Below are positions 23,373 through 27,561 of a stretch of 64,000 nt of DNA, piece after piece; position 1 is the first letter of the stretch; the number at the start of each line of letters is the position of its first letter. The stretch comes from Peredibacter starrii (lineage in GTDB: Bacteria > Bdellovibrionota > Bacteriovoracia > Bacteriovoracales > Bacteriovoracaceae). Location of the stretch: positions 1,178,001-1,242,000 of the forward strand of contig NZ_CP139487.1 of assembly GCF_034259205.1 (NCBI RefSeq), given 5' to 3'. A program made the translations under genes and the position numbers. The notes below the pieces were generated by a model, which was given only the letters and a program-made list of their open reading frames with translations, made no database searches and had not been told where the DNA came from.

Positions 23373-24134
23373 TTAACCGAATCTTCCTTCAATATAAGCA
23401 GCTGTTTTTGCTTCTTTTGGCGTGTTGAAAAGAGCTTCTGTTTGACCCATCTCAACAAGCTCACCCATGTACATGAAAATTGTTTCATCAGACACGCGTT
23501 TCGCCTGACTCATAGAGTGAGTCACGATGATGATAGAATAGTCCTTCTTAAGGTCTTTAATCAGGGTCTCAATCGCTTCAATACCCGCTGGATCCAGGGC
23601 CGAACAAGGCTCATCCAGAAGAAGAAGTTTTGGCTTAAGTGGAAGAAGGCGAGCGATACAAAGACGCTGCTGCTTCTCTAAACTTAAAGTCAAGGCCGAA
23701 CGGTTTAGTTGATCTTTAAGATCGTCCCAAAGCCCCACACGTTTAAGTGAAGACTCAACCATATCGTCTAGTTCAGAGGCCTTGATTTTTTTAATATGAG
23801 TGCGAGCACCAAAAATCACATTTTCATAAATTGAAAGTGGAAGAGGATTTGGTTTCTGGAAAACCATCCCGACTTGTTTACGAAGCTCTGGTAGGGCAAC
23901 TGTCGGGTGATAAATATCTTGGCCAAAAACCTGAATTGAACCTTCGTGTGAAACTACATTCCCACGTTCGTTAATTCGGTTTAAGCACTTTAAGAATGTA
24001 CTCTTACCACAACCAGACGGGCCAATCAGCGCCGTGATTTTGAAAGCAGAGATATTGAACGTTAAACTTCTCAGGGCCTGGAAATCTCCATACCAAAAAC
24101 TGAATTCATTAGTGTTTACTACATGGTTTCTCAT
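23373..24134 (-). CDS. pstB: Phosphate ABC transporter ATPase with degenerate signature (second PstB)
   Basis: A 253-residue PstB-like nucleotide-binding protein. Tyr15 (A-loop), Walker A (residues 38-46, GPSGCGKST), Q-loop Gln93, Walker B LLLLDEP and switch His206 (IVTHSMSQ) are intact. The ABC signature, LSGGQ in normal PstB, reads LSLEK at residues 150-154. It is the fifth gene of pst, 3 nt after the first ATPase gene. Paired with the partner ATPase it would supply the intact catalytic residues of one ATP site and the defective signature of the other. Confidence 0.93.
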   Translation of the reverse strand: MRNHVVNTNEFSFWYGDFQALRSLTFNISAFKITALIGPSGCGKSTFLKCLNRINERGNVVSHEGSIQVFGQDIYHPTVALPELRKQVGMVFQKPNPLPLSIYENVIFGARTHIKKIKASELDDMVESSLKRVGLWDDLKDQLNRSALTLSLEKQQRLCIARLLPLKPKLLLLDEPCSALDPAGIEAIETLIKDLKKDYSIIIVTHSMSQAKRVSDETIFMYMGELVEMGQTEALFNTPKEAKTAAYIEGRFG

Positions 24135-24137
24135 AAA

Positions 24138-24893
24138 TTACCCGAATAGACCTTCGATATAGTCTTGCGTTCTAGAATCCTTCACCTTGCCATTGAAAAG
24201 ATTTTCATTGGTATCTAGATCAAGAATTTTCCCGTGAAGCATCATTGCCGTTCTGTCACCAAGGCGTCTGGCCTGGCTAATAACATTTGTTACCATCACG
24301 ATGGTCATTTGTTTTTTCAGTTCTTGAAGAACTGCTTCAATTTTCATGGTCGTCACTGGATCGATCGCAATCGAGAACTCATCCAGGCACAGAACTTCTG
24401 GGTGGTGAGAAAGCGCGCGGGCAATTGTGAGACGCTGCTGCTGTCCACCTGAAAGTTTCGTTGCGAGACCATCAAGACGGTCTTTCACTTCGTCCCAAAG
24501 GGCCGCCTTTCTAAGACAGTCTTCCATAATGTAATCAAGCTCGGCCTGATCTTTACAACCGGCCATACGAGGAGCGTAGGTCACGTTATCTTTAATCGAC
24601 ATTGGTAGACCCACTGGAAGTGGAGACACCATTCCGATACGACGGCGTAGGAAAGTTGAATCTTCGTCTTGATAGATGTTTTCGTTATCAAGAAGGATTT
24701 CACCTTTTACATTGGCGTGTGGATTAAACTCCACCATGCGGTTTAAACAACGAAGAAGGGAGCTTTTCCCAGAGTTCGCTGGACCAATGATTGCCAGAAC
24801 TTCGTTCTGATAGATATCAAGGTTAAGATCGCTGATTACGTCCTGTTGTCCGTAATTAACTGTAAGGCCTTTGATCTGAATTTTCTTAATCAT
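24138..24893 (-). CDS. pstB: Phosphate ABC transporter ATPase with degenerate Q- and H-loops (first PstB)
   Basis: A 251-residue PstB paralogue. Walker A (GPANSGKSS, 37-45) and the signature LSGGQ (147-151) are normal. The Q-loop position reads Pro91 (MVSPLPVG instead of MVFQKPNP), Walker B ends LDEF, the D-loop reads IAID, and the switch His is Asn203 (VTNVISQA). It is thus complementary to the neighbouring PstB, which has these residues but lacks the signature. It follows pstA by 4 nt. Confidence 0.93.
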   Translation of the reverse strand: MIKKIQIKGLTVNYGQQDVISDLNLDIYQNEVLAIIGPANSGKSSLLRCLNRMVEFNPHANVKGEILLDNENIYQDEDSTFLRRRIGMVSPLPVGLPMSIKDNVTYAPRMAGCKDQAELDYIMEDCLRKAALWDEVKDRLDGLATKLSGGQQQRLTIARALSHHPEVLCLDEFSIAIDPVTTMKIEAVLQELKKQMTIVMVTNVISQARRLGDRTAMMLHGKILDLDTNENLFNGKVKDSRTQDYIEGLFG

Positions 24894-24897
24894 AAAA

Positions 24898-25767
24898 TTA
24901 CCACTTCCTTCTGGTACGGAAGTAATAACGAAGAACTACCGCAATTGAGTTAACAGAAAGAATTAAAAGAATAAGGACAAGGGCCGTTGCGAACGGATAA
25001 GCATCCGGAACTCCCACCACCTGAGTTGAGATCGTGAATAGGTGCATGGAAAGCGCCATACACTGATCAAATACAGTCTGAGGCAGGAACGGAAGGTAGA
25101 ACGCCACACCTGTAAAAAGGATCGCTGCTGTCTCACCTGCAGAACGACCTACCGCAAACACAAGTCCAGTAAGGATACCAGGAATAGAATTTGGAAGAAC
25201 GATATGACGGATCGTCTGAAGCTTACTCGCTCCCACGTTCCAAGAGGCCTCACGGTACGACTGAGGAACCGCTTTAAGGGACTCAAGAGTGGACGTGATA
25301 ATTACCGGAAGGTTCATCACTGCAAGAGTGAATGAAGCAGCAAGAATACTTGTTCCCATCTTTAGGAAAAGAACGAAAGCACCAAGACCAAAAAGGGCAT
25401 GAACGATACTTGGAACACCTGCAAGGTTTAGGATCGCAAGACGAATCATACGAGTCACTTTATTGTCTGGAGCGTATTCAGAGAGATAAATCGCCGCCAC
25501 GACGCCAAGGGGACAAGACACCAGAACACTGATCATCACTAGCCAGAACGTACCAACAATCGTCGGGAAAATTCCTCCGGCAGTCATACCATCGATAGGA
25601 TCCATTGTTATAAAGTCCCACGAAAGGGCAGGGTAACCTTTCATGAACAACCAGAAAATAATGATAAGGGCCGGCAAGAAAAGGAAGAAGGTCACAGTGC
25701 TTAGAATGCTCTTAAACTTCTTCTCGCGGATCTCTTTATTAATGAGGTGAACACTTGGTCTGAACAT
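24898..25767 (-). CDS. pstA: Phosphate ABC transporter permease PstA
   Basis: Inner-membrane permease subunit for phosphate uptake. The 289-residue protein has six hydrophobic segments, starting with FLFLPALIIIFWLFM, and the coupling motif EASWNVGASKLQTIRHIVLP that contacts the ATPase. It lies 1 nt after pstC and 4 nt before the first pstB. Length is normal for PstA. Confidence 0.95.
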   Translation of the reverse strand: MFRPSVHLINKEIREKKFKSILSTVTFFLFLPALIIIFWLFMKGYPALSWDFITMDPIDGMTAGGIFPTIVGTFWLVMISVLVSCPLGVVAAIYLSEYAPDNKVTRMIRLAILNLAGVPSIVHALFGLGAFVLFLKMGTSILAASFTLAVMNLPVIITSTLESLKAVPQSYREASWNVGASKLQTIRHIVLPNSIPGILTGLVFAVGRSAGETAAILFTGVAFYLPFLPQTVFDQCMALSMHLFTISTQVVGVPDAYPFATALVLILLILSVNSIAVVLRYYFRTRRKW

Positions 25768-25768
25768 A

Positions 25769-26701
25769 TTATTTCCTCTTCCCGCGAATTAGGTAATCAG
25801 CAGATAGGTTCACGATAAGAGATAGGATGAATAGAACTAAACCGATCGCGAACAGGGCCTGATAGTGCTCTCCACCTTTTGGAGATTCACCCAACTCAGC
25901 TGCAATTGTTGCAGTCAGAGTTCTACCTGGTTCAAAAATACTTTCAGGAATTTGAATGGCGTGACCAGTTGCCATGAGTACGGCCATGGTTTCGCCCAGA
26001 GCACGACCAACACCAAGAAGGGCCGCGGCCATAAGACCATTTTTAGCGGCCGGGAGAAGAACGCGAGTTGCAACTTCCCATTTTGTAGCACCGAGAGCTT
26101 CAGCAGCTTCACGATATGTTTCAGGTACCGCACGAAGGGCATCTTCACCTACAGATACAATAAGAGGAAGAGACATCAGGGCAAGAATCACTGAAGCGTT
26201 CAGGATGTTAAGACCAACCGGAACGTTAAAGATTTTGATAATGGCCGGGTTGATCATCATAATGGCGATGAAACCCCAAACCACTGATGGAATTGCTGCA
26301 AGGAACTCAATCAAGATTTTATAAACTTCTCTCACTTTTGGAGAGCAGAATTCAGAAATATAAAAAGCACACGCCAGACCAAGAGGAACGGCAATTAGCA
26401 TGGAAAGGACTGTTACCATTACAGTACCAACCAATAGAGCAAGAATACCGTAGCTGATTTTAACCACAGAGGCCGGGTTCCAGTTCTCAGAGAAGAAAAA
26501 CTCTTTGAAATCGAAAGCACCCACCAGGAATGGATAAGATTCTTTTAAAATAAAGAAAAGGATCGCAAGAATAAGAACGATAGAGCTCAGACCTGCTACT
26601 TTAATAAAACCTTCAATAAGTCTTTCGCTGAGAGGCTTTTTGCCTTTCTTCTGTCGCCATTCCATGGTGAGCTCGGCCGATTTAGTGATCTTCATTTCCA
26701 T
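25769..26701 (-). CDS. pstC: Phosphate ABC transporter permease PstC
   Basis: Second permease subunit of the phosphate importer. It is 310 residues with six membrane segments and the EAA coupling motif (EAAEALGATKWEVATRVLLP). The basic N-terminus (MEWRQKKGKKPLSERLIEG) is cytoplasmic. It lies 2 nt after pstS and directly before pstA. Confidence 0.95.
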   Translation of the reverse strand: MEMKITKSAELTMEWRQKKGKKPLSERLIEGFIKVAGLSSIVLILAILFFILKESYPFLVGAFDFKEFFFSENWNPASVVKISYGILALLVGTVMVTVLSMLIAVPLGLACAFYISEFCSPKVREVYKILIEFLAAIPSVVWGFIAIMMINPAIIKIFNVPVGLNILNASVILALMSLPLIVSVGEDALRAVPETYREAAEALGATKWEVATRVLLPAAKNGLMAAALLGVGRALGETMAVLMATGHAIQIPESIFEPGRTLTATIAAELGESPKGGEHYQALFAIGLVLFILSLIVNLSADYLIRGKRK

Positions 26702-26703
26702 AT

Positions 26704-27561
26704 CTACCTTTTCGGAGCAGGAACATATCCTGCCTTAATTGTAATCGCGTGAGCTCTCTCGGTTTGAGTCCACTCTAAGTAGGCCTTAACTTCTTCCGAA
26801 GGAGTGCCTGATGTATACATGTATAGTTCACGAGAAATGGGATAAGATTTGTCTGTGGCGGTTTGAACGGTAGGTTGGATGCAGTCGGCTTCTGGCGTCT
26901 TTTTAATACAGATCGCCTTCACGTGGGGATTTAGGTAGCCCATCCCTGAGTAACCAATTGCACACGGTGTTTTTTCAACCAGGTCAATTGATTCACGTGA
27001 ACCACTGAGGTCCATTGATCCAAGTTTTAAATCTCTTTTCTTTCCCAGAATTGCCTCACGGAAATACTGATATGTTCCTGAGTTTGATTGGCGCGATACA
27101 CGAATGATCTTGTTGTCTTTACAACCCGGTACCTGAATTCCACGGATATCGTGCCAATATAGACAGTGTCCGCCTTCGCCGTAAATACAGGCCACTTCTT
27201 CAAGGGTCATACCTTCGATTGGATTTGAAGGATGGATAAAAACCGCAAGGGCGTCCATACCAACGATAAACTCATTAACGTCTTTACCAGTATTTTTCTT
27301 GGCCTCTTCACGCTCTTCATCTTTGATTGCTCGAGAAGAGTTGGCGATATCTACAGTTCCATTGATTAAGGCCGCGATTCCTGTACCGGAACCTCCACCT
27401 GAAACTGCTAGAGCAACATTGGGATTAACTTTTTTGTATTCTTCGGCCCAGGCCTGGGCAAGGTTAACGAGAGTATCGGAACCTTTGTTTTGAATAATGT
27501 GAACGTTTGATTGTTTGGTACAACCAATCATAAGGAAAAGAATCAGAAAAATTCCGCGCAT
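26704..27561 (-). CDS. pstS: Phosphate-binding lipoprotein PstS
   Basis: Periplasm-facing binding protein of the phosphate importer. The signal MRGIFLILFLMIGC gives a lipobox Cys, so it is anchored like PstS of Gram-positive bacteria rather than freely periplasmic. Phosphate-pocket motifs are NKGSDTLVNLAQAWAEEY, SGGGSGTGIAALINGTVD and RQSNSGTYQYF. It is the first gene of pstS-C-A-B-B. A two-copy 7-bp direct repeat with 11-bp period, Pho-box-like, lies 68 nt upstream. No phoU, phoB or phoR is in the window. Confidence 0.94.
   Translation of the reverse strand: MRGIFLILFLMIGCTKQSNVHIIQNKGSDTLVNLAQAWAEEYKKVNPNVALAVSGGGSGTGIAALINGTVDIANSSRAIKDEEREEAKKNTGKDVNEFIVGMDALAVFIHPSNPIEGMTLEEVACIYGEGGHCLYWHDIRGIQVPGCKDNKIIRVSRQSNSGTYQYFREAILGKKRDLKLGSMDLSGSRESIDLVEKTPCAIGYSGMGYLNPHVKAICIKKTPEADCIQPTVQTATDKSYPISRELYMYTSGTPSEEVKAYLEWTQTERAHAITIKAGYVPAPKR

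Follow-up and report, generated by a model that had tools for sequence, protein, structure and literature searches.

To each ATP site of an ABC dimer, one subunit contributes its Walker A and Walker B motifs, Q-loop and switch residue, and the partner subunit contributes its signature motif (PMC7756269). The canonical phosphate importer PstSCAB of E. coli (PDB 9k3x, 9k3y, 9k3s) has a single pstB gene with all motifs intact, and with it two equal ATP sites. A previous sequence-only reading of the locus described here took one pstB gene to be the normal state, which overstates the case: Firmicutes are known to carry tandem pstB genes, with PstB1/PstB2 (PstBA/PstBB) encoded by two adjoining genes within one pst operon. 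A heterodimer model exists for PstBA/PstBB of B. subtilis (PMC11466899), and PstB1 and PstB2 of E. faecalis have intact motifs and no degenerate site (PMC12096839). The importer DppDF of E. coli likewise has free NBD subunits that differ from each other, and both of them keep functional motifs and hydrolyse ATP (PMC12136057). A degenerate site as one of two is found in the importers RbsA and NupO, which have their NBDs fused in one chain, are classed as type II and, as part of their degeneracy, lack the Walker A Lys (PMC11466899); their substrates are ribose and nucleosides. The exporters TM287/288, TAP1/2 and BmrCD also pair one consensus with one degenerate composite site, the degenerate pattern being conserved (PMC7756269), in proteins whose TMD and NBD are fused. 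Degenerate-site importers and intact tandem PstBs are therefore both known, but we did not find their combination in a phosphate importer in the literature searched, and the earlier statement that no described phosphate importer of this build is known holds within that search, most subscription journals lying outside its scope.

The window (the whole 64,000-nucleotide stretch of Peredibacter starrii DNA that was analysed) encodes the same four kinds of subunit on its minus strand. The genes pstS (26704..27561, phosphate-binding protein; TIGR02136, 216.3 bits; Pfam PBP_like_2), pstC (25769..26701, permease subunit; TIGR02138, 288.6 bits) and pstA (24898..25767, permease subunit; TIGR00974, 257.9 bits) each score above their own curated family cut-off. 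They are followed by the two adjoining pstB genes that had been noted previously, both recovered as open reading frames at the positions first given: pstB-alpha (24138..24893, 251 aa) and pstB-beta (23373..24134, 253 aa), each an ATPase subunit. Both match TIGR00972 best (284.1 and 328.6 bits, respectively), though they fall below the curated cut-off of this PstB equivalog (343.2 bits), so that two diverged, sub-cut-off PstBs stand where the canonical system has one. Alpha and beta are separate open reading frames with a TAA stop between them, not one polypeptide as in RbsA-type fused importers, and they are the sole PstB genes of the 4.15 Mb genome, in which a third, ordinary PstB was sought and none was found. 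The PstS N-terminus, MRGIFLILFLMIGC, contains a lipobox-like motif (LMIGC) as read from the sequence, and PstS is probably a membrane-anchored binding protein.

Motif positions were assigned by aligning both proteins, residue by residue, with the E. coli PstB found in the solved PstSCAB complex (PDB 9k3x), and this alignment agrees with the motif assignments first made for both genes. Alpha keeps an intact LSGGQ signature (residues 147-151; 24441..24455, minus strand, as for all motif coordinates here) and a Walker B/D-loop segment, LCLDEFSIAIDP, with the catalytic Glu172 retained (24357..24392), while Pro91 replaces the Q-loop Gln (codon 24621..24623) and Asn203 replaces the switch His (codon 24285..24287). 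Two further changes in alpha had not been noted before: its Walker A reads GPANSGKSS, compared with GPSGCGKST in ordinary PstB (24759..24785), and its D-loop flank reads DEFSIAID, compared with DEPCSALD. Beta shows the complementary pattern, with an intact Walker A (GPSGCGKST; 23997..24023), Q-loop Gln93 in an FQ context (codon 23856..23858), Walker B and D-loop, LLLLDEPCSALDP (23589..23627), and switch His206 (codon 23517..23519), and with LSLEK in place of the LSGGQ signature (23673..23687; family pattern L-x-L-[ED]).

To place these substitutions in a wider context, GTDB species genomes were scanned, yielding 80 loci, 78 of them with both genes complete enough to read. Alpha P91, N203, K43, E172 and LSGGQ are present in 78/78 pairs, as is Asp171 of Walker B, and the A-loop Tyr is usually retained; the fourth residue of the alpha Walker A varies (N, Q, G or K), K43 being kept throughout. 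On the beta side, K44, Q93, E175 and H206 are intact in all 78 pairs, and the signature has Leu (L152) at the first Gly position in 78/78 and Glu (E153) at the second in 76/78, with Asp in the other two. A second gene with a normal signature had been named as an observation that would count against the proposal, and no such orthologue occurs among these pairs. The same split is seen in 28/28 loci with both genes from the genus and its relatives, a set that partially overlaps with the 78 pairs. Going by their record titles, the loci spread over roughly twelve groups of phylum rank (Bdellovibrionota, Verrucomicrobiota, Myxococcota, Acidobacteriota, Pseudomonadota, Gemmatimonadota, Planctomycetota, Fibrobacterota, Lentisphaerota, Binatota, Eiseniibacteriota and KSB1); most of the loci are metagenome-assembled, and some of the group names are coarse. 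The check suggested previously was whether the substitutions are conserved and co-vary. They are conserved. As to co-variation across the presumed degenerate site, raw counts of alpha residue 40 (N/Q) and beta residue 151 (S/Q) do track each other, but the tree needs only 4 and 8 changes, phylogenetically independent pairs give no support, and the signal is lost when phylogeny is allowed for; we do not count it in favour of the heterodimer.

Assuming the usual head-to-tail dimer, the motif changes, at the level of sequence, all fall into one composite site and leave the other complete. A heterodimer of this kind predicts that relaxation in each subunit is confined to those regions with which it builds the degenerate site. 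We therefore scored departures at the columns that 35 ordinary PstBs conserve. Those of alpha are almost confined to regions forming its own ATP site, and most of those of beta are in regions extending into the site of its partner: 15/17 departures seen in alpha only are outside the helical/signature half, and 7/11 seen in beta only are inside it (Fisher P = 0.010, which is only indicative, as the halves were drawn from E. coli numbering after the list had been seen). The departures appear to partition as a head-to-tail heterodimer predicts. The gene order pstS-C-A-alpha-beta and the overlapping alpha-beta junctions seen among the pairs would also fit a stoichiometric pair.

We therefore propose, with a probability of roughly 85%, that alpha and beta form an obligate head-to-tail heterodimer, with one catalytic and one impaired ATP site, in a high-affinity phosphate importer of the composition PstS-C-A-Balpha-Bbeta. 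The two ATPase subunits would assemble head-to-tail under PstC and PstA. Site 1, combining the Walker A, Walker B, Q-loop and switch His of beta with the LSGGQ of alpha, would hydrolyse ATP, and site 2, combining the altered P-loop, Pro91 and Asn203 of alpha with the LxLE signature of beta, would be catalytically impaired, so that transport would be powered by about one hydrolysis per cycle. Because alpha keeps K43, D171 and E172, site 2 would most likely hold or sense nucleotide as a structural element; with the A-loop Tyr usually kept as well, this defective site may still bind ATP. The sequence-only reading had one site combining all intact motifs and the other all defective ones; the complementary pattern is upheld by the 78/78 pairs and by the partition of motifs, but a wholly defective second site is not, given the three retained residues. 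Its comparison with asymmetric exporters of the TM287/288 type is apt, as the same split into one consensus and one degenerate site is found here at the sequence level and is fixed in all pairs, and we infer that the pair works like an asymmetric ABC transporter. Unlike those exporters, this system is a type I importer that depends on a binding protein and has free NBDs, and unlike several of them it retains the catalytic Glu on the degenerate side. In contrast to RbsA and NupO, its predicted degenerate site keeps the Walker A Lys, and its substrate would be phosphate.

Other readings of the pair have to be weighed against this one. Alpha and beta might each homodimerize and serve different functions, for example one as transport ATPase and the other as regulator, as could be suggested by E. 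faecalis, in which the roles of PstB1 and PstB2 are non-overlapping and excess PstB2 replaces PstB1 (PMC12096839). Both of those proteins have all motifs intact, however, whereas neither alpha2 (without the Q-loop Gln and switch His) nor beta2 (without the signature) would hold one complete ATP site, and the alpha-beta pair is inseparable across phyla, which makes separate homodimers quite improbable. The second site could instead have altered chemistry with a useful rate of hydrolysis, giving a heterodimer that is functionally near-symmetric, like DppDF. The retention of K43, D171 and E172 of alpha in 78/78 pairs would allow for this, as would the tolerance of Asn at the switch position in ABCC1, where wild-type-like transport is retained (PMC7756269), so that the His-to-Asn change alone is no proof of a dead site; furthermore, DppD and DppF differ from each other and yet both hydrolyse ATP (PMC12136057). 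Those two subunits keep their functional motifs, though, while here one composite site has its P-loop, Q-loop Gln, switch His and the two glycines of the signature all altered jointly, and they remain so in all pairs, and we regard near-symmetry as very improbable.

A speculative variant of the heterodimer, which is drawn from residue conservation and which we consider unlikely, would leave the degenerate site free of nucleotide: E153 of beta, a position that is always acidic among the pairs, would reach the altered alpha P-loop and pair with the invariant Lys43 as a stand-in for the ATP gamma-phosphate, latching that half of the dimer and making the importer a one-ATP machine. Next to no weight is given to a relaxed or decaying locus in which one gene is a failing duplicate. 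It would be in keeping with both proteins scoring below the strict PstB equivalog cut-off, but the two genes are the only PstB genes of their genome, the substitutions are fixed over about twelve phyla, and species of the window's genus show a low pN of 0.12 against a pS of 0.80, near saturation (both values are quoted instead of a dN/dS ratio, as dS is saturated). Judging by these values, both genes are under strong purifying selection, and conservation refutes the failing duplicate. Recent decay and sequencing error are likewise ruled out, because the open reading frames are intact, non-synonymous differences are few next to near-saturated synonymous ones, and the motif split is fixed.

With respect to structure, alpha predicted alone as a single chain folds well (pLDDT 89.7), a result that does not bear on assembly. 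AlphaFold2 was also run on the in-frame alpha-TAA-beta read-through, that is, on tethered subunits and with 13 sequences; the domains fold, but the model as a whole, at pTM 0.51, does not fix how the two are arranged, and the alpha part of this model has the same NBD fold as 9k3x (Z 33.2, rmsd 1.6 Å). Compared with solved fused two-NBD importers, the tethered alpha-beta model differs by about 20 Å rmsd over both NBDs.

The phosphate role is supported by the PstS, PstC and PstA scores and by the neighbours of pair loci in other phyla, which include genes for PhoU, DUF47+PHO4, histidine kinases/response regulators and a phosphate-selective porin. Within the window's own genome, neither a Pit-type (PHO4) transporter nor a free-standing PhoU was found, so that Pho signalling via PstB-PhoU may be absent there. 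The only PhoU domain of this genome (G000:C1:3037686-3037949; L211:1162-2877) forms the tail of a protein of 571 residues, which we read from its sequence as an NptA-like sodium/phosphate transporter. The PstA of the window shares with that of other paired systems a coupling helix of the form REA-[SC]-W-N (REACWN-like), a form absent from the ordinary PstAs used for comparison; this Trp-Asn variant might mark the permease half that docks alpha, or may be a mere mark of the clade. Three pair loci, from Gemmatimonadota, Gammaproteobacteria and Acidobacteriota (L106:2132-3199, L107:2029-3108 and L118:2015-3103), have a PhoU gene between pstS and pstC whose product is extended at the C-terminus by what looks, from its sequence, like a low-molecular-weight phosphatase/arsenate reductase domain; Pfam reports the PhoU part only, in L106 and L107.

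The pair is widely but sparsely distributed, being found in 29/369 genomes of the window's phylum (6 genera) and in 4/195 sampled genomes of the phylum of an Opitutaceae locus. Beta adjoins alpha in 28 of the 29 alpha-positive genomes of the window's phylum, the contig ending in the remaining one, and a beta-specific pattern, which misses some leucine codons, matches alpha-positive genomes only, except for a single genome, 59% complete, from the same genus. The order pstS-C-A-alpha-beta is kept wherever the contig allows (about 80 loci), and the alpha-beta junction overlaps in 42/78 pairs, by 4 bases in 32, which suggests coupled, equimolar translation.

A tree calculated with the motif columns removed places alpha (support 98/96) and beta (100/99) in separate clades, neither of them within the ordinary PstB clade. 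The two would thus constitute two subfamilies of the PstB superfamily outside ordinary PstB, which profile-based annotation does not split from it. The alpha and beta subtrees are closely alike, with distances correlating at r = 0.86 (0/2000 permutations), a mirroring that operon linkage alone could explain. One genome of the window's own family (G063) carries both genes of the Gemmatimonadota/Acidobacteriota type, suggesting joint transfer of alpha and beta. These results touch on the open mechanistic question of whether both ATP sites of an ABC importer have to work, which has so far been approached mostly through engineered mutants or exporters. Here, evolution appears to have made a one-site version of a textbook importer and to have kept it across very large distances, with both genes apparently transferred jointly from one lineage to another. 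Since 20/31 diverse pair-bearing genomes also hold a PstB above the ordinary cut-off, a symmetric and a putatively asymmetric machine could be compared in one cell.

Additional PstB-like genes were observed at some loci. An uncultured Verrucomicrobia MAG carries a third such gene after alpha and beta (L115:6291-7200; G218 C171:8560-9297), in which the signature is ruined (LNNRQ), Lys replaces the catalytic Glu (LDKP) and the switch residue is Asn (ATND). It appears to encode an ATPase-dead relative of the NBDs whose operon it shares. Four loci of the window's phylum (L136, L138, L140 and L142) have second PstB-like genes that branch off early as a clade of their own. Their LSGGQ is intact, and two of these genes have a changed Q-loop context, FQEP.
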